From the NCBI GenBank assembly GCA_009881125.1, contig WXFH01000039.1, positions 1 through 25,157 of the forward strand: DNA of 25,157 nt. Reading direction: 5' to 3'. The DNA comes from Acidaminobacter sp. GTDB taxonomy: Bacteria > Bacillota_A > Clostridia > Peptostreptococcales > Acidaminobacteraceae. The notes under the pieces are model-generated. The model was not told the DNA's origin. It was given only the letters and a program-made list of their open reading frames with translations, and did no database searches. Positions 728-21,613 of this stretch are shown here, one piece after another (position 1 is the stretch's first letter; the number at the start of each line of letters is the position of its first letter). Position numbers and translations under genes: made by a program.

Positions 728-1038
728 GTTGAATTTTTCGGCTGAAAGCCTTATGTAAACCCGCTTTCAGAGATCTGAGAGCGCTCATTTCAAGATGTTG
801 TATCAAATTCTAAACAATATGATTTTTGACACAAAATGTGCCAAAAAAAATTATTTTCCGCAATCTACAAGAAAAATTTTTGTCACCCTTTTCCCCGCTG
901 GGTGAATGTGCCCTTATGTGACCATCGGCAAAAAGCACTTAAATGTGGAAGGGGTGCCTGCGACTTGTGTCTATCAGCCCCCGCTTCCTCCCCCAAAAAA
1001 ATTCCGCCGATGGTCACGCCGCCATCTCCACAGCGCCA
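728..1038. other. Gene-free region holding two inverted copies of the GCCGATGGTC motif
   Basis: No coding sequence is credible here. The open frames crossing this stretch have no ribosome binding site and one runs antisense through the VanZ-like gene. The stretch is AT-rich up to about 900. GTGACCATCGGCA lies at 918-930 and GCCGATGGTCAC at 1006-1017, forming an inverted pair with 75 bases between. Both belong to the iterated motif family described in the findings. Nothing else is recognised. Confidence 0.6.
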
Positions 1039-1539
1039 TTACCCCCGACGGACCTCTTTCAATTTCTTTCGATCTTTCCTGACAAACCGCCCGACCGCCA
1101 GCATCATCGAGATCGCCAACCATGCAACCAGCACGCCCAGCAGCGCCCCACCGGCGTCCAGCGCCATGTCTGACAACATCATGGTCCGCCCCGGCACAAA
1201 ATGCTGGTGCACCTCGTCCGCGACCCCAAGCAAACTCGCAATCAGCCAGGCCGGCAGCACCAGCCGCAGCCCTTTGCGGCGCGTTAAAGTAAAAAACGCC
1301 ACCGTCACAAACCCGCCCAGCACGGTAAACAACAGCAGGTGCGCGCCTTTTCGCGCCAAATATTTCAACAAAACAACCGACGGATCCGTCGACCGTATCA
1401 ATTCCGCTTTCGTCGCCAGCCCGAGCCGGACCAGCACCTCATAGGTCTGCTGTGTCGTCTCCTGCATGGCCTGACTCGAGAACCAGTAAATCACCGCAAC
1501 CCAGACAATTACCAACAGCAGCGTCAATACGCGCTTCAC
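1039..1539 (-). CDS. VanZ-like family membrane protein
   Basis: This is a protein of about 166 residues with four hydrophobic segments. VanZ-family signatures are visible: a helix with K-G-A-H (ARKGAHLLLFTVLGG), then ADEVHQHFVPGR, and a late SDMALDAGGALLG. The conserved acidic and His residues in DEVHQ and the Arg in PGR are present. VanZ of enterococci gives low-level teicoplanin resistance, but most family members have unknown roles, so resistance should not be inferred. I prefer the GTG start at 1539 because GAGGTGAGGGGGG precedes it. An in-frame ATG at 1566 lacks a ribosome binding site. It appears monocistronic. Confidence 0.8.
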   Translation of the reverse strand: MKRVLTLLLVIVWVAVIYWFSSQAMQETTQQTYEVLVRLGLATKAELIRSTDPSVVLLKYLARKGAHLLLFTVLGGFVTVAFFTLTRRKGLRLVLPAWLIASLLGVADEVHQHFVPGRTMMLSDMALDAGGALLGVLVAWLAISMMLAVGRFVRKDRKKLKEVRRG

Positions 1540-1647
1540 GCGGGCATCCCCCCTCACCTCAACCATTATATGTCGAGAGCGGGGGTGAGGTCAAGGCCGC
1601 GCGCAGGTTGACATAAAATTGTTTTCGCCAGCAGCGCAGTTCTTCGT

Positions 1648-1815
1648 CTACATTGAATTCCCGCCGCGCTCCTTCTCCCTGATATACAGGTCCAGCGCCC
1701 GAATCCCCCTGTGCGCCAGCTTGAACATCAGGTAGTAAAGGTAAACCGTCAGCACCAAAAATCCAATCACAACCGCGACGTTAAAAAGTCCAAACACGCT
1801 CCAAAATGCGTTCAT
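1648..1815 (-). CDS. Small single-pass membrane protein, 55 residues
   Basis: An ATG at 1815 is preceded by GGAGG at good spacing, and the frame runs 55 codons to TAG. The product begins MNAFWSVFGLFNVAVVIGFL, continues with a hydrophobic helix to about residue 30, and ends with an amphipathic charged tail (KLAHRGIRALDLYIREKERG, then GNSM). It most likely has one membrane helix with a cytoplasmic tail. No family is recognised. The ribosome binding site, codon use and helix-plus-basic-tail layout support a real gene. A copy of the GCCGATGGTC motif lies 23 bases upstream of the start codon. Confidence 0.65.
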   Translation of the reverse strand: MNAFWSVFGLFNVAVVIGFLVLTVYLYYLMFKLAHRGIRALDLYIREKERGGNSM

Positions 1816-1837
1816 TTTCCAGCCTCCAAAAATTTTT

Positions 1838-1852
1838 TCTGCCGATGGTCAC
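1838..1852 (+). repeat. Copy of the iterated motif TCTGCCGATGGTCAC
   Basis: A full 15-base copy lies behind the T-rich tract AATTTTTT, just upstream of the small membrane protein gene. See the findings for all copies. Confidence 0.7.
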
Positions 1853-1947
1853 CCATACACCCAGCCTTTCCCTATTACCCGCCTGATCCTATCCTAAAAC
1901 CAATTCATGCCGTATTTTGAATAATGTCACCCTTGAATTAATTGCCT

Positions 1948-2002
1948 AAAAAGTAAAAGTGCCCTAGCCTGGTTGAGAAAAAACACAGGCTGGGGCATTT
2001 TT
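1948..2002 (-). terminator. Intrinsic terminator, possibly bidirectional
   Basis: Arms 1960-1971 and 1986-1997 (TGCCCtAGCCTG with CAGGCTGGGGCA) form a 12-bp stem with one mismatch. On the minus strand it is followed by CTTTTACTTTTT, just after the stop codon of the EamA-type gene. A short T-run also follows on the plus strand. Confidence 0.8.
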
Positions 2003-2006
2003 AAAA

Positions 2007-2426
2007 CTATCTGTTAATCAATATCAGTCCCGCAATGCACAGCACCGCCCCAAAGATCTTGTTGACCTCAAAGGCTTCCTTGTAGATCATGATCCCCACC
2101 GGAATCAGCGCGATAGCCAGGGCGATATTCGCCACAAGACTGCCCACGCTGATGTTCCAGCCAGCCCTATAGGCAGCCAGGAAACCGAACTCCAGCCCTA
2201 AAATTGAGATGCCCAGCAGAAAGGCCGTCCAATTGAGAGACTGCAAGGACTCAAGGACACCCTTATCCGTCTTGTAGAAAAGAAGCGCGACCACGGAGAG
2301 TGCTGCTGCCACCAGGTAGGTCACAGTCAGGCTCACAAAAGGATTGATCTTATCCGGCGTGGACTTTTGAGCGATATGGTACAGGATGTTGGACGCGACG
2401 ATCATGACTATCGAAAAGACGTACAT
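2007..2426 (-). CDS. EamA/DMT-superfamily half-size transporter
   Basis: The 139-residue protein has about five hydrophobic segments and resembles one EamA repeat of the drug/metabolite transporter superfamily. The late stretch GSLVANIALAIALIPVGIMI followed by YKEAFEVNKIFGAVLCIAGL is typical, with the Lys-Glu after the penultimate helix. Full EamA transporters carry two such repeats in about 300 residues, so this one probably works as a dimer, as small multidrug resistance proteins do. The substrate is unknown. The ATG is supported by GGGAGGAGA seven bases upstream. It is followed directly by a terminator and stands alone. Confidence 0.75.
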   Translation of the reverse strand: MYVFSIVMIVASNILYHIAQKSTPDKINPFVSLTVTYLVAAALSVVALLFYKTDKGVLESLQSLNWTAFLLGISILGLEFGFLAAYRAGWNISVGSLVANIALAIALIPVGIMIYKEAFEVNKIFGAVLCIAGLILINR

Positions 2427-2590
2427 GAGGCTCTCCTCCCGGTATTATATTCCATAACTAAGTATGCTGAATAAACTGGATTTTAAGCCTGGTTTTTGCC
2501 AGCAGGTTAAACAAATGTTAGTTTAGATATTTACAGAACGATACATTAGGTTCTGCTATGGATGTTGCTGCTATTCGTTCTTAACTGCGA

Positions 2591-2911
2591 CTATCTTCCA
2601 AGCTCGATAACATTTGCGACCAGGGCTTTACACTTGCCGCAGTCCGACCCTGCGCCGGTCACTTCAGCCACCTGATCCGCGGTGGTAGCGCCATTTGAGA
2701 TCGCGGTCAAGACGTCCTGGAACGTGACGTTTTTGCAGCCGCAGAGCATGGACATAATGTTGTCCAGGTTTTCGCTGCAGCCATCGCATTCGCCGCAGGC
2801 GCCGGTGACAGCTTTCAACTCCTCCAGTGAGCGCGCGCCGCCAATTTGCGCCTTTCTGAATGCCAGATACTCAACATTATTAGTTGTACAAATGATACCT
2901 TTACTTGCCAT
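2591..2911 (-). CDS. BFD-like [2Fe-2S] protein with two repeats
   Basis: This is a 106-residue soluble protein. The C-terminal half has the bacterioferritin-associated ferredoxin (BFD) ligand pattern: Cys57-x-Cys59, 31 residues, Cys91-x2-Cys94, with TFQDVLTAISNGATTADQVA between. The N-terminal half looks like a degenerate copy: one Cys at 8 instead of a C-x-C pair, then Cys39, Cys42 and Cys45 around ACGECDGC. BFD domains bind a [2Fe-2S] cluster and serve in iron release or electron transfer, often fused to larger enzymes. A free-standing two-repeat form is less common. AAAGGAGAA precedes the ATG. There is no obvious operon partner, so its client cannot be named. Confidence 0.78.
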   Translation of the reverse strand: MASKGIICTTNNVEYLAFRKAQIGGARSLEELKAVTGACGECDGCSENLDNIMSMLCGCKNVTFQDVLTAISNGATTADQVAEVTGAGSDCGKCKALVANVIELGR

Positions 2912-2965
2912 TTTTAAGTTCTCCTTTTCTTATGTGGTTTTTCCCAAGCCTCTATTTGGGTGCTT

Positions 2966-3014
2966 TTTGAAATCTTACCAGGAGATTTTATATTATTTTT
3001 GAAAAGATTTCAAA
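2966..3014. promoter_or_regulatory. Perfect 11-bp inverted repeat between divergent genes
   Basis: TTTGAAATCTT (2966-2976) and AAGATTTCAAA (3004-3014) are exact reverse complements separated by 27 AT-rich bases. They lie between the BFD-like gene (minus) and the HAD gene (plus). The site could be an operator or a stem-loop. No T-tract supports a terminator. Confidence 0.45.
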
Positions 3015-3045
3015 TCCTTTTCTGTGCTTTATCGTGGGTAATTTG

Positions 3046-3054
3046 TGCTAGAAT
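3046..3054 (+). promoter_or_regulatory. Extended -10 promoter of the HAD gene
   Basis: TGCTAGAAT matches the TGn-TATAAT extended -10 form. No good -35 box is seen. The start codon lies about 100 bases downstream. Confidence 0.5.
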
Positions 3055-3103
3055 AAAGTAACGTTGAAATGTGATACTGGCTGGGCTGATGGGGCGGATG
3101 GCT

Positions 3104-3206
3104 GACCATCGGCAGAAGCCGGCTTTTGGAATTGAAGGTTAAGGAGCGTTTTGAGATGGAACAATTGAGTATAGCGCCTCAAAAAAATAATTTTGCCGAT
3201 GGTCAC
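3104..3206. repeat. Inverted pair of iterated GCCGATGGTC motifs
   Basis: GACCATCGGCAGA (3104-3116) and TGCCGATGGTCAC (3194-3206) face each other across 77 bases. The first is in the leader of the HAD gene and the second is inside its N-terminal codons. Confidence 0.65.
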
Positions 3207-3860
3207 CTGACCCTCGCCTCACTGCCGCAGAAATTCAAAGGCTTTCTGTTCGACATGGACGGCACGCTGTTTGACTCGATGACGATGTGGCGACATCTGA
3301 TGCCGGATTATCTGCGGACTCACGGGATCGAGCTGCCGCGGGAGGTTCACAAGTCCATGCAGGGAAATTCCCTCGGGAAGGTCGTCGAAATAGTCGCCGA
3401 GCTGTATCATGAGCACCTGGACGAGCGGGAGATGTTCGAGTATTATGACCAGCGGCTGAAGGCAGCTTATGGGGAACAGGTCGCATTTAAACCCTTTGCG
3501 CTGGAGTATTTGCAGCATCTCAGGGCTCATGGGCGCCGTCTCGCGCTGGTGACCACAACGGATCGGGTCTATGTGGACGTGCTGTTTGAGCGCTTTGGCC
3601 TCCACGACTATTTTGAAGTGATCCTGACAATTTCGGATGTCGGGGCGGGCAAGAATAAGCCTGACATCTATCACGAAGCGGCCCGACGGTTAGGGCTTGG
3701 CGTGCAGGAATGTGTCGTCTTCGAGGACGCGCTGTTCGCGCTGGAAACAGCCCGGGCGGCGGGATATGTGACGATTGGCGTCGAAGATCACGGGCATGTG
3801 GATGAAGAGACGCTGGAACAGCATTGTGATTTGATGATTAAGAGTTGGGATTGGGCGTAG
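3156..3860 (+). CDS. HAD-superfamily hydrolase, beta-phosphoglucomutase/phosphatase-like
   Basis: The product has 234 residues. HAD motifs appear in order: FDMDGTLFDS with the nucleophile Asp33 and acid/base Asp35, an alpha-helical cap (about 45-120), motif II VTTTD, motif III Lys in GKNKPDIY, and motif IV VFEDAL. This fits the subfamily I phosphatases and phosphomutases (phosphoglycolate phosphatase, beta-PGM). The substrate is not predictable. ATG 3156 has AAGGAG at good spacing; an upstream TTG at 3126 does not. Residues 13-17 (FADGH) in an N-terminal extension before the HAD fold are encoded by a copy of the iterated motif, so this extension may be the footprint of a motif insertion. Two terminators follow. 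Confidence 0.85.
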   Translation: MEQLSIAPQKNNFADGHLTLASLPQKFKGFLFDMDGTLFDSMTMWRHLMPDYLRTHGIELPREVHKSMQGNSLGKVVEIVAELYHEHLDEREMFEYYDQRLKAAYGEQVAFKPFALEYLQHLRAHGRRLALVTTTDRVYVDVLFERFGLHDYFEVILTISDVGAGKNKPDIYHEAARRLGLGVQECVVFEDALFALETARAAGYVTIGVEDHGHVDEETLEQHCDLMIKSWDWA

Positions 3861-3895
3861 GGGTTTGGTTTGGAAAAGGGAATGGAAAAAGGAAA

Positions 3896-3922
3896 GGAAA
3901 ACGGCAAAGCGCGCCGTTTTCC
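3896..3922 (+). terminator. Stem-loop after the HAD gene
   Basis: GGAAAACGGC (3896-3905) pairs with GCCGTTTTCC (3913-3922). The trailing TCTT is weak, so this may only assist the stronger terminator downstream. Confidence 0.5.
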
Positions 3923-3942
3923 TCTTAACTGAATTAGATGAA

Positions 3943-3978
3943 GGAAATTGGTGCGGCTGCTCCAATTTCCTTTTTTTT
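3943..3978 (+). terminator. Strong intrinsic terminator
   Basis: GGAAATTGG pairs with CCAATTTCC around a 10-base loop, followed by eight T residues. It closes the HAD transcription unit. Confidence 0.92.
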
Positions 3979-4063
3979 ACACGTTGGGCAAATTACACCG
4001 ACAGCGCGGCAGTCATTATGAGTCGAAGTCGCCGCAAGGCCTGTAAGACTTGCACCTAACAAG

Positions 4064-4137
4064 CTCTGGCACCAAAACAAACTCGGTGTCAGACACCAAC
4101 TTCAACTCAGTGACAGGCACCAAGTTGAAGCTGGGGA
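4064..4137. repeat. Dispersed GTGTCAGACAC palindrome repeat, copy 1
   Basis: The segment contains TCTGGCACC, GGTGTCAGACACC and GTGACAGGCACC with ACTTCAACTCAG and AAGTTGAAGC between. Related arrays occur at 9436-9525 and 18903-18996, so this is a dispersed intergenic family made of short palindromes rather than a gene. Confidence 0.7.
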
Positions 4138-4155
4138 CGCGGACGGTAATATAAC

Positions 4156-4435
4156 TACACCTCACTATACAGACGTGCTGCCTCGCGGCTGGCGCCTATT
4201 GCTCCGCAATCCCCCTCACTGCGTTCGGAGTATCACTGCGCTTCGGTATAGGGCCAAGCCCCACGCAACGCACACCTCACCATACAGACATGCACCTCGC
4301 TCCGCCTTCAACCACGCTTCGCGTGATTAAAGGCTGCGCTTCGGTATAGGGCCACGCCCTATACAAATAAAGAAAACACCATGTGTCTGAGAGCAAGCTC
4401 TCTGACACATGGTGTTTTCTCTATTTGTGCACGTC
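4156..4435 (-). repeat. Structured repeat element, copy A, following livF
   Basis: Read on the minus strand, the element starts right after the livF stop codon with GACGTGC. A 66-nt hairpin follows (4363-4428, 32-nt arms, two-base loop TT, with CAGAGAGC and GCTCTC next to the loop). Then come ATAGGGC..GCCC, CCGAAGCGCAG, a variable stem (CACGC-GAA-GCGTG core), CGGAGCGAGG, GCATGTCTGT and GTGAGGTGT. The latter module is repeated once more at 4156-4260 and ends GCACGTCTGT..GTGAGGTGTA. GACGTGC and GCACGTC at the ends are inverted repeats. Copy B lies at 24979-25150. It is not a coding sequence, and no known RNA family is recognised. Confidence 0.8.
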
Positions 4436-6963: not shown

Positions 6964-6977
6964 TTAGCCGCGCCCCC

Positions 6978-7963: not shown

Positions 7964-8002
7964 TGCCGATGGTCCCGGAAGTCCTACGGCTGAACATCGG
8001 CA
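7964..8002 (-). terminator. Stem-loop at the livJ 3' end, attenuator candidate
   Basis: On the minus strand CTGCCGATGTTC, the last livJ codons, can pair with GGACCATCGGCA after the stop, followed by AAAAGATTTTT. The stem is at least 8 bp. The downstream arm is a copy of the iterated motif (7964-7974). Partial termination here would give more LivJ than LivH, as is common for binding-protein operons. Confidence 0.5.
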
Positions 8003-9123
8003 GGAACAATCTTGCCGTCTTTAACGGTGAGGATAATGATGTTGCGGGAAACCGCGTTGTCAACAAAAGTGATTGGGCCGGCAACGCCAGGGAATTCCTG
8101 CGTCTCGTTGAGGAACGCTGTGATGGACTCGCGGTCCGCGCCTTTGGTTTTCATAGCTTCGAGGAGAACGAGGGCGGAGTCATAAGCGAGAGCAGCGTAA
8201 GTATCCGGCTCTTTGCTGTACTTCGCGACGAAAGCCTCTGTGAATTCTTTAGTGCCTGCGAACTCGATGTCCGGGTGGAAGAAGCCAGTGAACTTAATGC
8301 CTTCAACCGCGTCGCCGCCGAGCTTGACGAGCTCGTCAGAGCTTATGCCTTCTGTGCCGAGCATGTCGATGCTGAAGCCGGAATCCTTGGCTTGCTGAGC
8401 GATCAGAGCAGTTTCAACATAGTAGCCAGCGACGAACAGGAGGTCCGGGTTGGTGTTCTTGATGTTGGTGAGCTGCGGGCTGAAGTCTTTGGACTGGCCT
8501 TCGAAGTAAGTTTCAGTCGCGGTGATGGTGCCGCCGAGCTCTGTGAAGCGCTTCGTGAAGTCGTCCTTCAGACCGACGCCAAAGTCGTTGGCAGTGAACA
8601 TGATGGCCGCGTTTTTCTTGCCCATTTGGTTGTAGGCGTACTCAGCGAGTCTGTAAGCCTGATCTGTATCCGTCAGGGAAATTCTGAAGATATGCGGTGT
8701 GGAGCCGTCTGTGATCGCTTTGTTGACGGAGTCTGTGATGACCGGAATGCCGGCTGCTTCATAGATGCCGCGGGCTGCAAGCGTACAAGAGCTGTTCCAG
8801 TGGCCTATGATCGCAAGCACGCGGTCATCCGCAGCGAATTTCTGCGCGACGTTTGGTGCTTCTTTAGGGTTGCCTGTGTCGTCGCCGACCAGGAGCTTGA
8901 CCTGCTTGCCGTCGATGCCGCCAGCAGCGTTAACTTGCTCGAGTGCGAGTTCGATGGCTTTGACTTTCATGTCGCCAAACTGCGCGGAGTCACCCGTCAT
9001 AGGGTTGGCGCTTGCAATGTAAAGTTCTGTGCTTTCTTCTTCTGAGCCGCCGGAGCATCCGGCGAGGGCTGTGACTGCGAGGAGTAGGATCATTAATAAT
9101 GCCAGCATTTTTTTCATGTTCAT
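7984..9123 (-). CDS. livJ: Branched-chain amino-acid binding lipoprotein LivJ/LivK-type
   Basis: This 379-residue secreted lipoprotein has a signal peptide with lipobox LAGC, lipid attachment at Cys23, then a Ser/Gly/Glu linker and a type I periplasmic-binding fold (Peripla_BP_6). Family stretches include IASANPMTGDSAQFGDMKVK, VNAAGGIDGKQVKLL, DDTGNPKEAPNVAQKF, GHWNSS and MFTANDFGVGLKDDF. It captures amino acids outside the membrane and delivers them to LivHM. Leu/Ile/Val are the usual ligands, but homologues bind other amino acids, amides or urea, so specificity is inferred from the operon. AAGGGGGAAACA precedes the ATG. It is the first gene of the operon, behind a candidate sigma-54 promoter. 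Confidence 0.93.
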   Translation of the reverse strand: MNMKKMLALLMILLLAVTALAGCSGGSEEESTELYIASANPMTGDSAQFGDMKVKAIELALEQVNAAGGIDGKQVKLLVGDDTGNPKEAPNVAQKFAADDRVLAIIGHWNSSCTLAARGIYEAAGIPVITDSVNKAITDGSTPHIFRISLTDTDQAYRLAEYAYNQMGKKNAAIMFTANDFGVGLKDDFTKRFTELGGTITATETYFEGQSKDFSPQLTNIKNTNPDLLFVAGYYVETALIAQQAKDSGFSIDMLGTEGISSDELVKLGGDAVEGIKFTGFFHPDIEFAGTKEFTEAFVAKYSKEPDTYAALAYDSALVLLEAMKTKGADRESITAFLNETQEFPGVAGPITFVDNAVSRNIIILTVKDGKIVPADVQP

Positions 9124-9163: not shown

Positions 9164-9178
9164 TCTGCCGATGGTCAC
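9164..9178 (+). repeat. Iterated motif in the livJ leader
   Basis: TCTGCCGATGGTCAC sits inside a possible leader hairpin, GTGC..GATGG-TCACG-CCATC..GCAC (9160-9192). It lies between the candidate sigma-54 promoter and the livJ start. Confidence 0.65.
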
Positions 9179-9435: not shown

Positions 9436-9525
9436 TGACAGTCACTGACTTTAAGTTAGTGTCAGACACTCACATCAAATGAGTGTCTGACACCAAACTT
9501 GAATGAGTGTCTGACACCAAACTTA
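9436..9525. repeat. Dispersed GTGTCWGACAC repeat, copy 2, with tandem 24-mers
   Basis: The region contains GTGACAGTCACTGAC, GTGTCAGACAC (9460-9470), then two tandem 24-bp units starting AATGAGTGTCTGACACCAAA (9478-9501 and 9502-9525) that differ only at the last base. It is related to 4064-4137 and 18903-18996. Confidence 0.75.
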
Positions 9526-11198: not shown

Positions 11199-11252
11199 TT
11201 TTAATAACCCATCTTAATGTAGAATTTCAAGTATCGAGTAAATACTGGTACT

Positions 11253-11398
11253 CTGTAAACACTAAAACTTGACATTCAACAGGTTAAAATCACTCATTGC
11301 TGCGTTGTCGTCATCCGCGATACTGCTTAGTACCGCTGCTTTCTCCGCCTTGCGCTGCGTAATTTTTCCGCTGTTGGATGTTATAGTTTTAGAATTTA
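11253..11398. repeat. Large imperfect inverted repeat, MITE-like
   Basis: The left end CTGTAAACACTAAAACTTGA continuing to CAACAG matches the reverse complement of the right end (CTGTAAATTCTAAAACTATA continuing to CAACAG) at most positions. The interior has further pairing potential, including TACTGCTTAGTA at the tip. There is no coding sequence. This could be a non-autonomous transposon or a large RNA stem. No target duplication could be fixed by eye. Confidence 0.55.
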
Positions 11399-11425
11399 CA
11401 GGGCACTAGATCTGTTCTTCCCAAC

Positions 11426-11563: not shown

Positions 11564-12931
11564 CTACCCTTCCCCAAGCCCAAACTCCTTAATCTTGTTG
11601 TAAAGATGCCGCTCACTCAGCCCCAGCAGGTTTGCCGTCCTCCGGCGATTCCCCTCACAGTACAAAAGCGTCGCCTCAATCAGCCGCCGCTCCACCTCGT
11701 CCAGGCGTTCGCCCACATACACCGGCACCAGCTCCCGTGAGGATTTATAAACCGATATCCCCGTGATATCCCCCGGCAGATCCGCCAGCTGAATGATGGG
11801 ATCTATGGACAGCGCCACGGCCCGCTCGACAATATTCTGCAGCTCCCGGACATTCCCCGGAAAGTCATAGGCCTCCAGCGCCTCAATTGCCGTCGCTGAA
11901 ATCCCTGAAACCACTTTGCCAAACCGCTCCGAATACAGCTTCAAAAAGTGCTGGCACAGCAGCGGAATATCCTCTTTCCGCTTCCGAAGGGGCGGCACCT
12001 CAATGGCCACCACATTCAGCCGGAAAAACAGATCCTCCCTGAACAGCCCCTTGCGCACCGACTCCGCCAAATTCCGGTTCGTGGCCGTGATCAATCGAAA
12101 ATTCACATCTATGGACTTCTCACTGCCCAGCGGCGTCACCTTCTTCTCCTGGATCACCCTGAGCAGCTTCGCCTGCAGTGACAAATCCAGGTCCCCTATC
12201 TCATCCAGAAAAATGGACCCCTGATGCGCCAGCTCAAACTTGCCTTTGACCTTCTGATGGGCGCCCGTAAAAGCGCCCTTCTCATAACCAAAGAGCTCAC
12301 TTTCCAGCAGATTCAAAGGAATCGCCGCACAGTTCAGCGCCTGAAAGCTGTGCTTGGCCCGGTTGCTGCGCTCATGGATCGCCCGGGCGATCAGCTCTTT
12401 GCCCGTTCCACTTTCCCCGGTAATCAGCACATTGATGTCCAGGTCCTTGACCCGGTCGATCACATCAAACACATACCGCATAGCCGCACTGTCCGCAATG
12501 AGCATCCGCGAGTCCTCCGGCCCGCCAGAGCCGCCCTGCATCCCGGCGCCGCCCATCCCGCCAGCCCCGCCGCTCCTGAACTCAAGCGCCTTGTTGATCA
12601 TCACCGTCAAACTCTGAATATCCAGGGGCTTCGTCACATAGTGGTACGCCCCGCTCTGCATGGCTTTAATCGATGCCTCAATGCTGCCGTAAGCCGTCAT
12701 GGCAATAATCATCACCTCCGGCTTCCTGGCGTGCAGAGACCGGATCACGTCCAGCCCGTCCACGTCCCCCAGCCGCTGATCCAGCAGCACCAAATCCACC
12801 GAGTGGGCTTCCAAAATCTCAAACGCTGTTTCCGCGTTGTCCGCCACGTCAATCTCGTAAAGATCCTCCAGCGCGTAGCGGAGCGCCGTCAGAATCGTCC
12901 GCTCGTCGTCCACGATCAATATGCGCTTCAA
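11564..12931 (-). CDS. Sigma-54-dependent response regulator, NtrC/AtoC family
   Basis: The 455-residue protein has three parts. The receiver domain (1-115) has phospho-acceptor Asp51, acidic DDE at 8-10 and Lys101. The AAA+ domain has Walker A GESGTGKE (172-179), the sigma-54 contact loop GAFTGA (219-224), Walker B SIFLDEIGD (about 239-247) and the arginine-finger region FREDLFFRLNV. The C-terminal Fis-type helix-turn-helix reads NRRRTANLLGLSERHLYNKI. An unusual Gly/Met-rich linker (about 120-138) joins receiver and AAA+ parts. Phosphorylated by the adjacent kinase, it should activate sigma-54 promoters. The ATG overlaps the kinase stop by four bases. The liv operon is a candidate target. 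Confidence 0.93.
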   Translation of the reverse strand: MKRILIVDDERTILTALRYALEDLYEIDVADNAETAFEILEAHSVDLVLLDQRLGDVDGLDVIRSLHARKPEVMIIAMTAYGSIEASIKAMQSGAYHYVTKPLDIQSLTVMINKALEFRSGGAGGMGGAGMQGGSGGPEDSRMLIADSAAMRYVFDVIDRVKDLDINVLITGESGTGKELIARAIHERSNRAKHSFQALNCAAIPLNLLESELFGYEKGAFTGAHQKVKGKFELAHQGSIFLDEIGDLDLSLQAKLLRVIQEKKVTPLGSEKSIDVNFRLITATNRNLAESVRKGLFREDLFFRLNVVAIEVPPLRKRKEDIPLLCQHFLKLYSERFGKVVSGISATAIEALEAYDFPGNVRELQNIVERAVALSIDPIIQLADLPGDITGISVYKSSRELVPVYVGERLDEVERRLIEATLLYCEGNRRRTANLLGLSERHLYNKIKEFGLGEG

Positions 12932-14604
12932 ATTCGACTCCCCCTCTCCTCAAACGCCGGCAGTTCCATAATCACGCGAGTTCCCACACCGGGTGTGCTG
13001 TCCACCGAAATCGTCCCGTTGTTCTCGCGGATGAGTTGCTCGACCATCGGCAGACCTAAGCCGTACCCGCCGCGCTTGGAGGTCACAAAGGGCTCAAACG
13101 CCCGCGCCGCCTCGTCCCCGGTCATGCCCGGTCCGTTGTCTGCAACCACCAGCTCCACCACGCCACGTTCGCCCATCAGCGTGCTGGTGATCTCGATCCG
13201 CCCCTGCCTCACACTGCCCGCACCCTCGCCCATACCCGCAATTGCGTCCAGGCTGTTGAGAATCAGGTTCAGCAGAATCTGCTTTAGCTGGTTCGGGTCC
13301 GCATACACCCACAGAGCCTCAAGACGGTGGCCGATGGTCACGCTCCCACCCTCACTCCGCGGCCTTACAAGGCGTTCAAGGTTCTCCACCAGGCTGACCA
13401 GGTCGATCTCCCTGGGCTCCGGCACCTTTGGCCGCGCGTAATCCAGCAAATCCGTGATGAGCTGGTCCATCCGCGCGATCTCCGAAGGTACAATTTCCTT
13501 GAATTCCTCAATAAAGCGGTCGTTGTCGCGCTTCAGCGGCACGAGCTCGGACAGCGTCTTGATGGAAGTAAGCGGATTACGGAGTTCATGGGCGATCCCT
13601 GCCGCCAGATTGCCAACGGTCTGCATCTTGTCATACTGGCGGATCGCAGCTTCCTGAGACCTGATTTTCTCCGTCTGGAAGAGGACTTCCTTGGTCAGCT
13701 TCGCATTCCACTGGCGCACGACCAAAGCGGCGAAAATGGAAAGGCTCATAATCCCGAGGAGCAAATAAAAGATCCGCTTGGCCTGGTCCAGGGTGATCCC
13801 GTAGTCCACCAGCTGTTCTCCAAACCACTTTTTGTAAATCTGGTCATAAACGCCACTCTCCTTAACGCGCTTAATAGCGCCATTAAGTTTTTCGAGAAGT
13901 TCAGGATGGTCTGGATTCACGGCCATGCAATAATCTGTTACAGCCATGGGTTCCCCTACAATTTTTATGTCTTCCAGACGCCGCATCTTCTGCAGGTAAT
14001 AGATGGCCGTCAATCGGTTGCCTACAAAGGCGTCTGCATGGCCGTTCAACACATCCGCCAGAGCCCGCTCCTGGTCTGCGAAGCCCAGTGCGTCGACCCC
14101 AGGTTCCCAGCCCAGGATCTCTTCAGCCACATCTCCAAGCTGATAGGTTACCGTCCTGCCCTTAAGGTCCTCAAGGGCTGAGATAAACTGATTGTCCTTG
14201 CGCACAAAGATGGCCTGGCCGTTGGTGACGAGCGGCTCAGAAAACAGATAATAGCCTTCTCGCTCCGGTGTTCGGATCATCCCCTGGATCATGTCCACCT
14301 CACCCCTGCGCAGGGCCTGCTGAGCCTCTTCCCACTTCATGGGGATCAGCTCGAAGTCCATTTCCAGCTCAAGGAATACCGCGTTAAGCATGTTTACGTT
14401 AAAGCCTCGATAAACCCCATTCTGATCGAGAAATTCGTAGGGCGGATAATTTATGTCACCCGCGACCCGGATAACGTCATTGGTTGGACCTTCGACGGCG
14501 TAGGAAGGTTGGGCGATGGCAGGGTTGACCACAGAAAGCGCATATAGAAAAAAGACAAAAAACAAAACAAGGAAGGCCTTCGTGAACTTTAGTTTCCTGG
14601 TCAA
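12928..14604 (-). CDS. Sensor histidine kinase with extracytoplasmic solute-binding domain
   Basis: The 558-residue protein has an N-terminal signal/anchor helix (about 9-30). A family 3 solute-binding domain (PBPb, about 43-263) follows, with VAGDINYPPYEFLDQNGVYR, GFNVN and GEVDMIQGMIRTPEREGYYL. A membrane helix spans about 277-296. Next are HisKA with His339 in AAGIAHELRNPLTS, and HATPase with N-box NLILNSLD, DNGPGM, and GYGLGLPMVEQL. The sensor domain belongs to a fold that usually binds polar amino acids. The TTG start is supported by AGGAGGGAG seven bases upstream. It is translationally coupled to the regulator gene. Two copies of the GCCGATGGTC motif fall in this gene (13042-13054 and 13330-13341). 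Confidence 0.92.
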   Translation of the reverse strand: MTRKLKFTKAFLVLFFVFFLYALSVVNPAIAQPSYAVEGPTNDVIRVAGDINYPPYEFLDQNGVYRGFNVNMLNAVFLELEMDFELIPMKWEEAQQALRRGEVDMIQGMIRTPEREGYYLFSEPLVTNGQAIFVRKDNQFISALEDLKGRTVTYQLGDVAEEILGWEPGVDALGFADQERALADVLNGHADAFVGNRLTAIYYLQKMRRLEDIKIVGEPMAVTDYCMAVNPDHPELLEKLNGAIKRVKESGVYDQIYKKWFGEQLVDYGITLDQAKRIFYLLLGIMSLSIFAALVVRQWNAKLTKEVLFQTEKIRSQEAAIRQYDKMQTVGNLAAGIAHELRNPLTSIKTLSELVPLKRDNDRFIEEFKEIVPSEIARMDQLITDLLDYARPKVPEPREIDLVSLVENLERLVRPRSEGGSVTIGHRLEALWVYADPNQLKQILLNLILNSLDAIAGMGEGAGSVRQGRIEITSTLMGERGVVELVVADNGPGMTGDEAARAFEPFVTSKRGGYGLGLPMVEQLIRENNGTISVDSTPGVGTRVIMELPAFEERGSRI

Positions 14605-14628: not shown

Positions 14629-15978
14629 TTATCTCTCCAACATCCTATCAAAACTCCCCGTCCCCGTATATGGAAAAACTCCATAACGCTTCAGGGCAAA
14701 AGGTACGTCAGAGGCGCTGGCCGGTGCGTCGCCAAGAGCGAAGGCCATGACATAGCCAAAGCCGTTCAGCACCTGGTCTGCTCTGGCATCATGGACGCCG
14801 TAAGGATGCGCGTAAACTCTCGTCTTGTTGAAACCCTTGTCCGTCAGCAGTCCTGTCGCCATCTGAAGATCTGCCTTCAGCGAGATCTCGTCAAGGGCCA
14901 GGGCCAGCGGCACGCCGCTGCTGCTCAGGCCATGGAGGGCGTGGCTGTGGGGGTGATACTCGAAGACGTTCTTAGCCTTGTTCATCTCCGCCCACGAAAT
15001 CTTCACCGTTTTGGATGGATCCCACGCCACTGGCGCCGCCTCCACTGTACCGGTGACCACGAACATGGACGCCGTGAAGCCATACTTCTTCAGAATAGGG
15101 TAGGCGTAGCGGTAGACGCTTTGGTAACCGTCGTCAAACGTGATGACCACACTGTTCTCCGGCGCTGTCCAGGTCCCCTTGAGGTGGGCCTGCAGCTGCG
15201 CCATGGTCAGCGTCGTGACGCCCTTCGATTTCAGGTAGGCCATGTCGCGCTCGAACTTCTCTACGGAGACGATGGCCGCGTTGATCTTCTGAAGAGGCGA
15301 CATTTCCGCCTCGAGGAGAAGATGATGGTAGCACAGCACTGGGATGTCTGCAGGTGCGGTGACGGCTTCCGCCGCATTGGTTGTAATTGCGGCTTGGCCT
15401 TCATTTTCGGCGGGGGTGTTGGCGGAAGGGACCATCGGCAGACTATTTTCTGCACTGGCTAGCAACGGCGCAGCGAGTTCCGGTTCACTGTTTGCCGTGG
15501 CAGCAGGCTGCTCGGGCTCCGGCGTCCCGTTAGCCGGCTTCTCCAAAAGCGCACTTTGGCCGATAGTCACCAGAAAGTCCCGCTCCACATAATCTGCGCC
15601 GTTCTCCCGGAAGGCACTGTGCCAGGTCTCCCGCCCGGTCGCGTCCAGCACGTTGAGCCGGCCGTCCGCGGAGGGCATTATGAAGAACTGCTGAGTCCCA
15701 ATTTTCAGTGTCTTGAGGTCCCGGCTGGGATGCGCCGTCAGGGTCAGACCCGGGATGCGGGCGAGATCCTCAAGGCGCAGGTAGTCCGCTTCGACGCGGG
15801 TGATGATCTCAAAGGCTGGAATCGTCGCTGTTGACGCTTCCAATGAGACTTCCGTCGAAACCGACTGGGTGAAGCTGGGGGCTGGGAGGGTGACCATCGG
15901 CAGAAAAAGCCCTAAGATGAAGGTTAAGGCCATGGCGGCCTTTTTTATTTTTTGGTGATTTAAATGAACTGGTTTCAC
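14629..15978 (-). CDS. Secreted polysaccharide deacetylase (NodB homology domain)
   Basis: The 449-residue protein has a signal peptide (about 12-33). An N-terminal beta-rich region follows (about 50-140, IITRVEADYLRLEDLARIPG), then a Pro/Ala/Glu linker (about 150-210) and a NodB domain. Catalytic motifs are PVLCYHHL, TFDDGYQS (Asp282, Asp283), a metal-binding His motif HSHALH (His344, His349) and AHPYGVHD. Such enzymes remove acetyl groups from peptidoglycan or other N-acetylated glycans in the wall. GTG 15978 has GGAGGTAAGTC upstream. Two copies of the GCCGATGGTC motif encode LPMV, in the signal peptide (15890-15904) and the linker (15430-15442), where insertion would be tolerated. It lies 24 bases before the kinase gene. 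Confidence 0.9.
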   Translation of the reverse strand: MKPVHLNHQKIKKAAMALTFILGLFLPMVTLPAPSFTQSVSTEVSLEASTATIPAFEIITRVEADYLRLEDLARIPGLTLTAHPSRDLKTLKIGTQQFFIMPSADGRLNVLDATGRETWHSAFRENGADYVERDFLVTIGQSALLEKPANGTPEPEQPAATANSEPELAAPLLASAENSLPMVPSANTPAENEGQAAITTNAAEAVTAPADIPVLCYHHLLLEAEMSPLQKINAAIVSVEKFERDMAYLKSKGVTTLTMAQLQAHLKGTWTAPENSVVITFDDGYQSVYRYAYPILKKYGFTASMFVVTGTVEAAPVAWDPSKTVKISWAEMNKAKNVFEYHPHSHALHGLSSSGVPLALALDEISLKADLQMATGLLTDKGFNKTRVYAHPYGVHDARADQVLNGFGYVMAFALGDAPASASDVPFALKRYGVFPYTGTGSFDRMLER

Positions 15979-16712: not shown

Positions 16713-16730
16713 GGAGGAATTGAGATTTAT

Positions 16731-16808: not shown

Positions 16809-16837
16809 ATTGTAACATTGCATCACCAACATAACTT

Positions 16838-16864
16838 AAAAAGCGCCCTAAAGTTCAGGGCGCC
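16838..16864 (-). terminator. Intrinsic terminator after the DUF1328 gene
   Basis: On the minus strand GGCGCCCT and AGGGCGC form the stem around GAACTTT, followed by TTTTT. Confidence 0.82.
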
Positions 16865-16922
16865 TCATTTACACTTCTATCTCACAGCAAGTCATACGTG
16901 CGGACGCCATCAGCATCCCACT

Positions 16923-17084: not shown

Positions 17085-17177
17085 TTTCAGTTCCTCCTTA
17101 AATCTAAGAGCTCATTTGTTGTCTTTTTTGGAGAATAAAACCGTTAATAACATAATACCCGCAAAAGCAGTCCCGAA

Positions 17178-17206
17178 ACAATTCCAACGGTTTTAGTTGG
17201 AATTGT
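17178..17206. promoter_or_regulatory. Perfect 11-bp inverted repeat between divergent genes
   Basis: ACAATTCCAAC and GTTGGAATTGT flank a 7-base loop. The site lies between the DUF1328 gene (minus) and the antiporter gene (plus). It has no proper T-tract and may be an operator shared by both. Confidence 0.5.
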
Positions 17207-17254
17207 AATGTGATTGTCATAAAATTCCTAGCGCTCCCATCCTCAATCTTTGGG

Positions 17255-17260
17255 TATAAT
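17255..17260 (+). promoter_or_regulatory. -10 box of the antiporter gene
   Basis: TATAAT preceded by TGGG, 45 bases before the start codon. No convincing -35 is seen at 16-18 bases. Confidence 0.45.
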
Positions 17261-17305
17261 TAATGTAAACTTGACTAATGGCCCACTCGAAAGGAGGTTC
17301 AGCCT

Positions 17306-18784
17306 TTGCCCCAATTCCAGGTTCTGAACTTAAACCAGCTGCTGCTCCTCGCCGCCTTCGTCCTTCTCGCCAGCGCCTTCTCCAGTAAGATCCTTTACCG
17401 CTTCGGGATCCCGACCCTGCTGATCTTCCTCTCCATAGGCATGTTTTTTGGTGCCGATGGTCCCGGGAACATCCAATTCAGCAACGCCACACTCGCCCGC
17501 AATATCTCCGTCCTCGGTCTCATTATGATTATGTTCACCGGCGGCTTCGACACCAACTGGAACACCGCCAAACCCGTCGCGGTCAAAGCCCTGCTTCTCT
17601 CTACCCTCGGAGTAGTCATCACCGCGGGACTCGTGGGCGTCTTCGTCTATTACATCACCAACCTCTCCCTAATCGAGGGCTTTCTGCTGGGATCGGTCAT
17701 AGCTTCCACCGACGCAGCCTCCGTCTTCTCCATCCTGCGTTCCAAAAAACTCAACCTAAAAGACCGGCTGGCGCCTATGCTGGAAATCGAGAGCGGCAGC
17801 AACGATCCCTTCGCCTACATGCTCACCATCCTGACTCTCAGCGTCATCATGTCCTCCGGTAACGGCTTTCCGGCCGCCATGCTCATAAAACAGATCGTCT
17901 ACGGTGTCCTCATAGGCGCCGCTTTGGGCAAGCTGGCCGCCCTCTCCCTGCGCAAGATCCAGCTGGATATTGACGGCCTCTACCCTATCCTGACCTTTGG
18001 CTTCGTGATCGCCACCTTCGCCGCTTCTGAAACCCTGGGCGGCAACGGCTTCTTATCCGTCTACCTCATGGGCCTGATCGTGGGGAACAGCCCCATTGTC
18101 CACAAAATCAGCCTGGTTCGGTTCTTCGATGGCATCTCCTGGCTCATGCAGATCGTCCTGTTCTTCACCCTGGGGCTTCTGGTCAATCCGTCCACGTTTC
18201 CGCAGGTGGCGCTGGTCGGCCTCGCGGTCGCGGTCTTTCTGATTCTGGTGGCGCGTCCTATTGCCGTTGCTGTCATCCTGACACCTTTCGGCTACTCCCT
18301 GCGGCATCAGGCCTTCGTCTCCTGGGCAGGCCTGAGGGGTGCGGCGTCCATTGTGTTTGCCACGTATCCGCTGTCACTAGGGTTACCATCGGCTAACCTC
18401 ATCTTTCATACGGTCTTTTTCGTGGCCATGCTGTCCGTCCTCATCCAGGGCAGCTTCATGAGCCAGATGGCCGTGAAGCTGGATCTGATCGCCCCCAACG
18501 ACTCTGTCCTCAAGACCTTCACCGATTACGCCGGCGAGATCCACAACAAGATCCTGGAGCTGCCCATCACCGCGAACAGCGCCTTCGCCAACAAGCCCAT
18601 CATGGATCTGGGCATCCCCATGTCTATCCTGATTGTCATGGTGAAGCGCGGCGAAGAAGTCATCACCCCCCGCGGCGCCACTGTGGTGAGGCCCGGGGAT
18701 GTGTTGATGCTGACTGGGGATTCTGAGGAAGAATTGCTTAGTTGCTGCACGGGGGAACCACAGACGAGTGACATAGTCGTGTAG
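17306..18784 (+). CDS. CPA1-type K+(Na+)/H+ antiporter with RCK_C/TrkA_C domain (NhaP2/CvrA-like)
   Basis: The 492-residue protein has about 12-13 membrane helices (8-385) and a cytoplasmic TrkA_C domain (about 400-485, with MSILIVMVKRGEEVITPRGA and VVRPGDVLMLTGD). CPA1 landmarks are FGADGPG near residue 50, GSVIASTDAASVFSIL in the unwound helix region, and ESGSNDP with Asn166-Asp167 as the ion-binding pair. This architecture matches NhaP2/CvrA, which exchanges cytoplasmic K+ or Na+ for protons in osmotic and pH adaptation. TTG 17306 follows AAAGGAGG at seven bases. The GADGPG codons include a copy of the GCCGATGGTC core (17452-17462), here probably just family sequence. It is monocistronic. 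Confidence 0.9.
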   Translation: MPQFQVLNLNQLLLLAAFVLLASAFSSKILYRFGIPTLLIFLSIGMFFGADGPGNIQFSNATLARNISVLGLIMIMFTGGFDTNWNTAKPVAVKALLLSTLGVVITAGLVGVFVYYITNLSLIEGFLLGSVIASTDAASVFSILRSKKLNLKDRLAPMLEIESGSNDPFAYMLTILTLSVIMSSGNGFPAAMLIKQIVYGVLIGAALGKLAALSLRKIQLDIDGLYPILTFGFVIATFAASETLGGNGFLSVYLMGLIVGNSPIVHKISLVRFFDGISWLMQIVLFFTLGLLVNPSTFPQVALVGLAVAVFLILVARPIAVAVILTPFGYSLRHQAFVSWAGLRGAASIVFATYPLSLGLPSANLIFHTVFFVAMLSVLIQGSFMSQMAVKLDLIAPNDSVLKTFTDYAGEIHNKILELPITANSAFANKPIMDLGIPMSILIVMVKRGEEVITPRGATVVRPGDVLMLTGDSEEELLSCCTGEPQTSDIVV

Positions 18785-18815
18785 CCTAAAACTTAATGAA
18801 AGACAAAAAACCAAG

Positions 18816-18879
18816 AAAAGCTTTGCAAATGCTCGTTGATCTCACTTTGACATCAACCAGTTATCTGCAAAGCTTTTTT
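18816..18879 (+). terminator. Intrinsic terminator of the antiporter gene
   Basis: AAAAGCTTTGCA (18816-18827) pairs with TGCAAAGCTTTT (18866-18877), an inner stem GTTGAT/ATCAAC closes the loop, and T residues follow. Confidence 0.85.
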
Positions 18880-18902
18880 CTATGTTACAGAAATATTACA
18901 AT

Positions 18903-18996
18903 GCTCTGGCACCAGTTTGAGTTTGGTGTCAGTCCCCAGTTTCAGTTGAGTGCCTGTCACCCATCTTGATTTGGTGTCAGACACTCAACTCAATTC
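18903..18996. repeat. Dispersed GTGTCAGACAC repeat, copy 3
   Basis: CTCTGGCACCAGTTTGAG, TTGGTGTCAGTCCCCAG, GAGTGCCTGTCACCC and TTGGTGTCAGACACTCAACT follow one another, as in the arrays at 4064-4137 and 9436-9525. The end overlaps the last codons and the stop codon of the AraC-type gene. Confidence 0.72.
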
Positions 18997-19815
18997 CGCC
19001 TCTTTCCCCCGCCCCACAAACGCCTTCCTGTACTTCCCCGGCGACATCCCGGACAGCTTCCCAAAGGTCCTTATAAAATGCGCGTTGTTCTGAAAGCCCG
19101 ACAACTCGCCCGCCGCCTGGACACTATGCCCGCCCCTCAGCAGGGCCCGCGCCTTCATCACCCGGTTGTGAATGATGTATTCTCCCACCGAAAACCCCGT
19201 CACCGCTTTGAAGCTATGACACAGGTGGTACTTATTGATAAAAAAGTGATCCGCAATCTCCTCCAGCTTCAAGGACTCCCCCAAATTGCGCTGGATGTAT
19301 TGAATGATCGGCTCAACCTTTCCAAAGTCGGTATTCCTCGAATGATCAGAAGGTGACTTCGTCAAAAACAGCTTATGCGCTCGAATCAACAGACCCACAA
19401 AAGCCATGATCCTCTGAAGATCTTCCCCAAACTCCCCCGTCCGGACCTTCTGACACGCCTCAAAATACGGCAGCAGCGCATCCAGCTCCCCAGAATCCAG
19501 CTGAACGCACCTATTTTCTAGAATAAACTGCGACAAAAAATCCGTCTGCGGCGTCGAGATTCGCTCCAAAGCAGACCTGTCAAAATGCAGCACATAGCGG
19601 CTGTAAGAATCGCACCCAGCGGCGATTGTCCTGTGCAGCGCCGTGTCCCGAATCAAAATCAGCGTCCCTCTGTTCAAAGGATACAAAGTATTCTCAATAA
19701 AAATACTGCCCGCGTCGGACAGCGACAGCAGGATCTCATAGCCCTCATGGAAGTGGTGGGAATGCATCTGCCACTCCCGGTCATGATTCAAATTCAATTC
19801 AAAATCTATATTCAT
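18985..19815 (-). CDS. AraC-family transcriptional regulator
   Basis: The 276-residue protein has an N-terminal cupin-like sensor domain (about 1-140; MHSHHFHEGYEILLSLSDAG, NTLYPLNRGTLILI) and a C-terminal pair of helix-turn-helix motifs (about 175-270). These read LKLEEIADHFFINKYHLCHS followed by FKAVTGFSVGEYI, and AAGELSGFQNNAHFIRTFGK then LSGMSPGKYRK. The signalling ligand is unknown. It is divergent from the dehydrogenase-etf-gltS genes and is a likely local regulator of them. ATG 19815 has GAGGTGA upstream. The C-terminal Leu-Ser-stop lies in the dispersed repeat, so the natural C-terminus may have been altered. Confidence 0.88.
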   Translation of the reverse strand: MNIDFELNLNHDREWQMHSHHFHEGYEILLSLSDAGSIFIENTLYPLNRGTLILIRDTALHRTIAAGCDSYSRYVLHFDRSALERISTPQTDFLSQFILENRCVQLDSGELDALLPYFEACQKVRTGEFGEDLQRIMAFVGLLIRAHKLFLTKSPSDHSRNTDFGKVEPIIQYIQRNLGESLKLEEIADHFFINKYHLCHSFKAVTGFSVGEYIIHNRVMKARALLRGGHSVQAAGELSGFQNNAHFIRTFGKLSGMSPGKYRKAFVGRGKEAELS

Positions 19816-19857
19816 GCACGTCACCTCATACAATCTTCATACAATAAACTATCATAA

Positions 19858-19873
19858 TGGCATACAAATAGCA
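19858..19873 (+). promoter_or_regulatory. Weak sigma-54-like element before the dehydrogenase operon
   Basis: TGGCATACAAATAGCA has GG and GC 12 bases apart and five bases of the -24 box. It lies in AT-rich DNA 150 bases before the dehydrogenase start, so chance is a real alternative. Confidence 0.25.
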
Positions 19874-19962
19874 AGATACGCAAACTATAAGTCAAAATAT
19901 CGATAGAAACCACTTTTCTTTGAGCATATACTAATCCTATCAGAAATAGTTCAAACTTTCTG

Positions 19963-19976
19963 ACAATTCGAATTGT
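19963..19976. promoter_or_regulatory. 14-bp palindrome, candidate operator
   Basis: ACAATTCGAATTGT is a perfect palindrome, 47 bases upstream of the dehydrogenase start codon in the divergent control region. Confidence 0.4.
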
Positions 19977-20023
19977 ACAGGACCACCTGCACACATATAG
20001 CGCCAAAGACAAGGAGGCATATC

Positions 20024-21613
20024 ATGGACCTGAATCTCATCAAACCCATGCATGACGACTACGCGGATTATCTCAGGGATGAGTCCAGGGCTATCGGCCA
20101 GGCGGACAGCATCTCCTTTCCTAAAAACGAATACGAGGTTGCATCCCTTCTCAAAACGCTGTACGCCCAGGGCACACCCATCACCGTTCAGGGCGCCAGG
20201 ACCGGTCTCGCAGCTGGCGCCGTCCCACGGGGCGGCCATATCCTGAACCTCTCCAAAATGGATCACATCAAAGGCATAAGACAGTCTGCCGATGGTCACT
20301 TCCACATCACCGTCGAAGCCGGCACCATCCTCTCCCAGCTCCGCAAAAGGATCGAGCAGAAAAAGTTCGACACCGCGGACTGGACTAACGAGTCCCAACA
20401 AGCCTTCGAAGCCTTTAAGGACGAACCGGCCCTCTTCTTCAGCCCGGATCCTACGGAAAGCTCCGCAACCATAGGCGGCATGGTAGCCTGCAACGCATCC
20501 GGCGCCAGAAGCTACCTCTATGGCCCAACCCGGGATCACATCAGCGGCCTCAGAGTCGTCCTCCACGACGGTCAAATCGCCGCGCTGAAGCGGGGCGACT
20601 ACACAGCCAGCGGCAGAACCCTCAGCTTTCCGACCCTTCAGGGCAATCAGATCACAGTCGACCTCCCAACCTATATCATGCCAAAAACCAAAAACGCTTC
20701 CGGCTATTACATAGAAGACCATATGGACGCGGTCGACCTCTTCATTGGCTCAGACGGCACCCTGGGCATCGTCACCGAAGTGGAGCTCAGACTGCAGCCC
20801 CTGCCTCAGACCGTTTGGGGCATCACCTGCTTCTTCAGCGAAGAAGCCGCCGCCCTGGACTTCGTCATCTCCGCCAGAGACACCATGAACCAGCTGGCGT
20901 CCATGGAATACTTCGACGGTCACGCCTTGGATATTCTAAGATATCAGAAGCAGCACAATCCTGGCTTCTCGAAGCTTCCAATCCTGCCGGACCACGTCAA
21001 TACCGCCATCTATGTTGAGCTGCACTGCCAGGAGGAGACGGATGCGGTGGAGGGTCTCAAGACCATCGGCCAACTCCTTGAAAAGGCAGGCGCAAACCCC
21101 AACGACACCTGGGTCGCCAGGAACGAGTCGGACCGGGACCGCCTCCTGTTTTTCAGGCACGCGGTGCCGGAAAGCGTCAACATGGTGATCGACCAGCGAA
21201 AGAAGACCAACCCTATGATCACGAAGCTGGGGACGGACATGTCGGTGCCGGATCAGCATCTGAAGCAGATCATGGCCATGTACCACCGCATGCTGGCGGA
21301 GCGAAACCTGGAGTCGGCCATCTGGGGCCACGTGGGCAACAACCACCTCCACGTCAACATCCTGCCGCGGGACGACGAGGACTACAAAAAAGGCAAAGCC
21401 CTCTACGACGAGTGGGCGGCTGAAGTGACCCGGCTGGGCGGCGCGGTTTCCGCGGAGCACGGCGTCGGCAAACTAAAGGCAAAATACCTGGAGGTTATGT
21501 ACGGTCAGGAGGCCATCGAAGAAATGGCCAGGCTGAAGCAATACTTCGATCCGAAAGGCCTGCTGGGTGTCGGCAATATGTTTGAACCCGTGAAAGGAGA
21601 GGTGTCACAATGA
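20024..21613 (+). CDS. FAD-linked 2-hydroxyacid dehydrogenase (GlcD/LctD-like)
   Basis: The 529-residue flavoprotein has FAD_binding_4 (about 30-260) with GARTGLAAGAVPRGG, TIGGMVACNASGARSYLYGP and IGSDGTLGIVTEVELRL. FAD-oxidase_C follows (about 265-525) with WGHVGNNHLHVNILP and AVSAEHGVGKLK. Family members oxidise D-lactate, glycolate or D-2-hydroxyglutarate. The next genes encode EtfB and a ferredoxin-type EtfA, the arrangement of the confurcating lactate dehydrogenase of Acetobacterium, so electrons probably pass to Etf. The downstream glutamate symporter makes 2-hydroxyglutarate an alternative substrate. AGGAGG precedes ATG 20024. A full copy of the iterated motif (20285-20299) encodes SADGH in a surface loop of the FAD domain. 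The stop overlaps the etfB start. Confidence 0.88.
   Translation: MDLNLIKPMHDDYADYLRDESRAIGQADSISFPKNEYEVASLLKTLYAQGTPITVQGARTGLAAGAVPRGGHILNLSKMDHIKGIRQSADGHFHITVEAGTILSQLRKRIEQKKFDTADWTNESQQAFEAFKDEPALFFSPDPTESSATIGGMVACNASGARSYLYGPTRDHISGLRVVLHDGQIAALKRGDYTASGRTLSFPTLQGNQITVDLPTYIMPKTKNASGYYIEDHMDAVDLFIGSDGTLGIVTEVELRLQPLPQTVWGITCFFSEEAAALDFVISARDTMNQLASMEYFDGHALDILRYQKQHNPGFSKLPILPDHVNTAIYVELHCQEETDAVEGLKTIGQLLEKAGANPNDTWVARNESDRDRLLFFRHAVPESVNMVIDQRKKTNPMITKLGTDMSVPDQHLKQIMAMYHRMLAERNLESAIWGHVGNNHLHVNILPRDDEDYKKGKALYDEWAAEVTRLGGAVSAEHGVGKLKAKYLEVMYGQEAIEEMARLKQYFDPKGLLGVGNMFEPVKGEVSQ

Follow-up and report, generated by a model that had tools for sequence, protein, structure and literature searches.

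The 25,157-nucleotide stretch of Acidaminobacter sp. DNA analysed here (contig WXFH01000039.1; hereafter the window) contains 15 copies of a 9-mer core word, ACCATCGGC (reverse GCCGATGGT), which recurs throughout the genome. Among the genomes sampled, the word is restricted to one genus. Taken together with its flanks, which are G/T-rich to about -16 and follow the pattern ..RTG-ACCATCGGC-ARAA..YTTT, it probably acts as a genus-specific signal by which self DNA is recognised for uptake, a reading to which we give a probability of about 0.58.

Abundance and exactness of the core word

The preliminary description of this DNA had listed 14 copies of a 10-base form, GCCGATGGTC. All 14 were recovered exactly at the places given, within the few flanking bases added there, and 100 dinucleotide shuffles of the window contained the 10-mer 0.03 times on average and once at most. 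The near matches reported near 7992, 15559 and 24392 were also real. However, the invariant, conserved unit was the 9-mer (GCCGATGGT/ACCATCGGC). It adds a copy at 18385-18393, which had been missed because its 10-mer form differs in the last base. The T-rich tract said to precede the motif was present, but it is an A-tract following the core when the word is read as GTGACCATCGGCARAA.

Genome-wide counts were taken from the two genomes of the genus, G001 (the nearest genome compared) and G002. G001 shared 75% of the sampled 31-letter words of the window, with aligned blocks 98-99% identical, and on this likeness it apparently belongs to the same species as the window organism. All 15 window cores were unchanged in G001. 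The window is a dense part of the genome, with 0.60 core sites/kb compared with 0.19-0.62 across seven sampled G001 contigs. The 9-mer core occurred 1,011 times in G001 and 819 times in G002, against at most 112 times in the other 295 of the 297 genomes sampled in the order. The 10-mer reached 647 copies in G001 and 543 in G002, and no more than 26 in the other 39 of the 41 family genomes. A frequency near expectation, which the preliminary description had named as the outcome that would tell against its motif, was not observed, since the 340 + 307 copies of the 10-mer in G001 compared with 1 + 1 for a backwards control. The 12-mer ACCATCGGCAAA was found 224 times in G001; in a draw of 398 genomes from the phylum, which did not include G002, none of the 397 besides G001 had more than 8. 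In an unbiased count of 425 kb, ACCATCGGC (102 vs 1.2) had the highest z-score of all 9-mers present 12 times or more. In size-matched samples of G001 and G002 the core word again came first among 9-mers and 10-mers; among the 12-mers of G002 another repeat outranked it.

The core word was nearly all-or-nothing. In 792,527 bp of G001, exact, one-mismatch and two-mismatch forms numbered 205, 196 and 2,080, compared with 3.5, 160 and 2,199 expected (ratios of 58.6, 1.23 and 0.95). The corresponding numbers in 800,000 bp of G002 were 135, 186 and 1,900 against 2.5, 138.5 and 1,998.5 (ratios of 54, 1.34 and 0.95). Beyond the core, the spacer sites (n=65), read as ACCATCGGC, had a G/T-rich block (about -16 to -8), T at position -7, RTG ahead of the core and ARAA behind it, with a fainter YTTT at +15 to +18. 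The same pattern was seen, more weakly, at sites in G001 genes (n=140) and at G002 sites (n=135). Outside about 20 bp of flank the copies had little or no sequence in common, and for this reason they do not resemble transposed units.

We also looked for dialects of the word in relatives. The unbiased count gave no comparable word in 10 genomes, at 80 kb each, from nine further genera of the family. Some relatives had enriched words of their own, in contig C11 of G015 (CTTGCGAGGCAA, GCGGGAACGTTA) and contig C71 of G034 (GCTTAACTATGA), which are perhaps longer repeats. The G018 sample likewise contained enriched words that may be longer repeats. A scan of IMG/VR with the 16-letter form of the word returned 34 stretches with a single match in each.

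Placement, pairing and conservation between species

Genes were called with a purpose-written caller, and placement in G002 was assessed on 400 kb. Sites were concentrated in spacers, with 0.65 sites/kb between genes and 0.20 within them in G001, 0.68 and 0.14 in G002, and 1.08 and 0.46 in the window. The earlier argument that protein selection does not explain the copies is supported by these G001 densities. Most sites nevertheless lay in genes (139 of 205 in G001, 47 of 85 in G002), and 98 of the 139 genic sites in G001 used two of the six frames, encoding Thr-Ile-Gly and Ala-Asp-Gly. Convergent spacers were the densest in both genomes (about 1.0/kb) and divergent spacers the sparsest (0.5 and 0.4), and in codirectional spacers 47 of 66 sites were closer to the upstream stop.

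Close inverted pairs were also in excess. Chance would place 8.0 pairs of neighbours within 150 bp in G001; 21 were counted, of which 20 were inverted. At distances of up to 60 bp, every one of the 26 neighbouring pairs in the whole of the sampled DNA was inverted; these pairs are not all independent, because at least one is common to both species. Of the GCCGATGGT..ACCATCGGC pairs within 60 bp, 12 of 16 had their starts 18-23 bp apart, roughly two turns of the helix, and many tight pairs sat just past stop codons. No significant polarity was found in the sampled G001 and G002 contigs plus the window. With strands assigned from local GC skew, the G-rich strand carried 183 sites and its complement 154 (p=0.13), and relative to the main gene strand the numbers were 141 and 112 (p=0.08). 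Site density was uneven, with a dispersion of 1.87 over 40 G001 bins.

The sites were conserved between the two species. In 338 kb of aligned G001/G002 DNA at 76.5% identity, 31 of 66 G001 sites were exact in G002 (47%) and 31 of 46 G002 sites were exact in G001 (67%), whereas permuted words of the same composition were exact at 10.9% of 1,961 sites. In a smaller first comparison, the exact sites were 15 of 24 and 15 of 21, compared with 12.1% for random 9-mers.

The longest site-free stretch, 51 kb in G002 (C19:47711-98763, G+C 0.43), carried exopolysaccharide-type genes and integrase-like fragments as judged by eye. The second longest, 33.5 kb and also in G002, included a Tad-type locus. An even spread of sites would give a longest gap of 28.6 kb. 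Because only these two stretches exceed that value, the longest site-free stretches provide no clean case of avoidance of mobile or foreign DNA.

A probable role in DNA uptake and alternative explanations

If the word is an uptake signal, we would expect it to be bound by a DNA receptor at the cell surface or the pilus tip. A Tad/Flp-type pilus, or a type IV pilus where there is one, would draw in the tagged DNA, which would pass through a ComEA-like protein and ComEC, and DprA and RecA would assist in its recombination. With tagged kin DNA taken up in preference, the tag would be written back into the chromosome. Copying of this kind would lead to many exact copies, few near-misses, occurrence on both strands, tolerance within genes and concentration in spacers. 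We infer that a protein binds the word, that tagged DNA is preferred in uptake and that the genus is transformable.

Several of the genes involved were present. A ComEA-like small helix-hairpin-helix protein, named from an HHH_3 match and, by eye, a hydrophobic stretch at its N-terminus, occurred in G001 and G002, to which this search was confined. DprA occurred in these two genomes and also in each of three relatives checked. Both genomes contained a Tad-type locus. In the G002 locus Pfam supported the ATPase, the F-type membrane protein and the FHA protein and assigned no family to two more members; its ATPase frame was whole. G002 also carried type IV pilus genes on contig C32 (L194, L216), with PilB- and PilT-like proteins and three pilins. 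No secretin match was obtained in G001 or G002 at E <= 0.001, so that no sign of a PilQ-type outer-membrane pore was seen in them, and a secretin was found in one of the three relatives checked (G034). No ComP-type pilin was found, in searches none of which was aimed at ComP.

The uptake signal sequence (USS) of Pasteurellaceae has an AT-rich tract on one side, which the present A-tract flank resembles. Hosts of USS and of the DNA uptake sequence (DUS) of Neisseriaceae carry a PilQ-type secretin. The cyanobacterial word HIP1 is found inside genes as well and is linked to methyltransferases, and Chi and FtsK-orienting polar sequences (KOPS) are over-represented short words that are polar along the replichore.

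Uptake sequences are described for Pasteurellaceae and Neisseriaceae in the passages drawn on here from PMC1852404, PMC5031613 and PMC1939737. In the same passages, the USS (AAGTGCGGT) shares with the present word an exact core of 9 bp, some thousand copies on both strands, inverted pairs and a sharp one-mismatch drop. The present word differs from it in being an unrelated sequence, in its Clostridia host without a secretin match, in the added G/T-rich block on the other side and in hairpins with no clear T-run. The DUS ((AT)GCCGTCTGAA) is similar in copy number, inverted pairs near gene ends and lineage-specific dialects, according to the parts of PMC1852404 and PMC5031613 used; inverted pairs are described there for uptake sequences (PMC1852404). 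It differs in sequence, and in G001 by the lack of a type IV pilin detectable with PF07963. Membership in the USS or DUS sequence families was rejected, given the different word and the missing secretin match. Micrococcus luteus, a Gram-positive with Tad-type genes and Tad/Flp-dependent transformation, provides a precedent for uptake by such pili, and the abstract of PMC4322843 mentions no uptake sequence for it, in which it differs from the present case. Full-text literature searches, which did not reach most subscription journals, showed no report of uptake sequences in Firmicutes, Clostridia or Gram-positives among the matches listed, and the papers listed for the core word itself looked unrelated.

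The likeness to uptake or landmark sequences proposed in the preliminary description extends to copy number, the all-or-nothing core, both strands, inverted pairs, the A-tract flank and the intergenic enrichment. The uptake role itself is a proposal, since ComEC and DprA are common to motif-free relatives. We file the word as one that may work like an uptake sequence. The wider proposal, for which we would give slightly less than even odds, is that this might be the first case of DNA self-tagging in a bacterium that has no outer-membrane secretin. In such a system a Tad-pilus- or ComEA-based receptor would replace the type IV minor pilin, in a single clostridial genus and evolved independently of USS and DUS.

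A number of observations weigh against an uptake role. ComEC was found in 39 of the 41 family genomes, including G001 and G002, and so does not track the motif; its family-wide presence permits uptake without explaining the word in this genus alone, and a genus-specific reader would be expected. No receptor for the word was identified. The search with PF07963 revealed no type IV pilin in G001, and the frame of its tadA-like ATPase was broken near codon 78 (C2 near 159,880, L118), by error or by real loss. The G001 comEC and comEA-like genes themselves lay in site-free stretches (C2 209234-222124 and 227384-253051), and the third-longest such stretch, 26 kb in G001, carried flagellar-type genes (by eye). 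Shared DNA was not clearly denser in sites than unshared DNA (50 sites in 300 kb vs 4 in 36 kb, the latter being few). Site density tracked G+C, with a Spearman rho of 0.68 over the 40 G001 bins. The 2.3 kb of convergent spacer in the window held no sites, and one of the 21 G001 pairs within 150 bp was not inverted. The hairpins of tight inverted pairs had no clear T-run after them by eye, which makes them look unlike ordinary intrinsic terminators. In the part of PMC1939737 drawn on, two known uptake words fall steeply from zero to one mismatch and their mismatched forms are still clearly in excess; the one-mismatch excess of the present word was weak and below theirs. In addition, for two Gram-positive species the choice of kin is ascribed to species-specific peptide signals and not to DNA tags, according to the text used from PMC5031613.

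The word could instead be bound by a chromosome-organising or nucleoid protein that is abundant, specific to the genus and has no part in uptake, with a dimer at paired inverted sites. The spacing of the pairs by about two helical turns, conserved flanks that suggest a footprint of about 35 bp and the uneven density all fit such a protein. We nonetheless consider it unlikely, since some 1,000 sites accompanied by so few near-misses are sharper than is usual for such proteins, the majority of sites is genic, and divergent spacers are the sparsest in both genomes, unlike the sites of a regulator. A word made by methylation-dependent repair bias and not by binding seems improbable. Highly iterated, lineage-specific words of this kind do exist, HIP1 (GCGATCGC) being an example in the passages taken from PMC4390886. 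There, however, HIPs are GC-rich palindromes. ACCATCGGC is not of this type; it has long asymmetric flanks, with the A-tract and the G/T-rich block extending over about 30 bp, and prefers spacers.

Genome-wide over-representation would also suit a Chi- or KOPS-like signal for recombination or chromosome segregation. We disfavour this explanation strongly, as the word differs from Chi and KOPS in having no significant polarity and every pair within 60 bp is inverted. It is just as hard to see the copies as relics of a mobile repeat, of the repetitive extragenic palindromic (REP) or miniature inverted-repeat transposable element (MITE) kind, or as a family of transcription terminators. The inverted pairs, many of them directly past stop codons, and the other dispersed repeats of the genome point in that direction, but the copies share no body past about 20 bp of flank, most sites are single, 139 of the 205 G001 sites lie in genes and the hairpins lack a clear T-run.

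Should the word prove to be an uptake signal, it would be a third, independent case of an uptake tag, in a genus without a secretin match, and would show that an outer-membrane pore is not needed for sequence-tagged sex to arise. The genus-restricted system would allow the emergence of tag and reader to be followed, and the origin of uptake bias would become testable. Should it be something else, about a thousand near-invariant copies would still demand a genome-wide protein or process of an unfamiliar kind.

Copies in the window and other repeats

The 15 cores of the window are given below, with strands for ACCATCGGC and gene functions assigned by eye.

921-929 (+): intergenic core ACCATCGGC, 85 bp from its inverted partner at 1006-1014
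1006-1014 (-): core, intergenic; inverted partner of 921-929
1841-1849 (-): core with the full flank TTTTTTCTGCCGATGGTCACC, intergenic; exact in G002
3105-3113 (+): intergenic core, 90 bp from its inverted partner at 3195-3203; exact in G002
3195-3203 (-): core within called gene 3126-3860; G002 differs by one base
7965-7973 (-): core, intergenic between permease-like and substrate-binding-like ATP-binding cassette (ABC) transporter genes; exact in G002
9167-9175 (-): core, intergenic, upstream of substrate-binding-like gene 7984-9123; not conserved in the G002 alignment
13043-13051 (+): core within gene 12928-14604 (sensor-kinase-like); exact in G002
13330-13338 (-): core within gene 12928-14604; not conserved in G002
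15431-15439 (+): core within gene 14629-15933 (polysaccharide-deacetylase-like); outside the G002 alignment
15893-15901 (+): core within gene 14629-15933, near its start; outside the G002 alignment
17453-17461 (-): core within gene 17306-18784 (cation/proton-antiporter-like); exact in G002
18385-18393 (+): core, the 15th copy; exact in G002
20288-20296 (-): core within gene 20024-21613 (flavin adenine dinucleotide-linked-oxidase-like); outside the G002 alignment
21062-21070 (+): core within gene 20024-21613; outside the G002 alignment

Other elements were also observed. The start of the window consisted of tandem arrays, with a 12/24-bp unit (TTCTCCGCCGGT) at 1-227 and a 6/18-bp unit (TCTTTG) at 242-347, and these arrays account for the low-complexity open frames at 1-347. 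A cyclic di-GMP-I riboswitch (RF01051) matched positions 556-647 on the reverse strand at 76.6 bits. For EtfB, the best relatives came from Tindallia, Dethiosulfatibacter, a Bacillota MAG and Maledivibacter, at 67-71% identity. A second iterated word, GTGTCAGACAC, occurred at 9458-9524, in a related form at 18912-18984 and at many places in G001, often in arrays with 24-bp spacing. At least 49 of its 56 copies in the sampled DNA were intergenic, and it looks like a REP-type repeat. Dispersed repeats lay at about 4272-4435 and 11248-11409, with more copies in G001 and G002.

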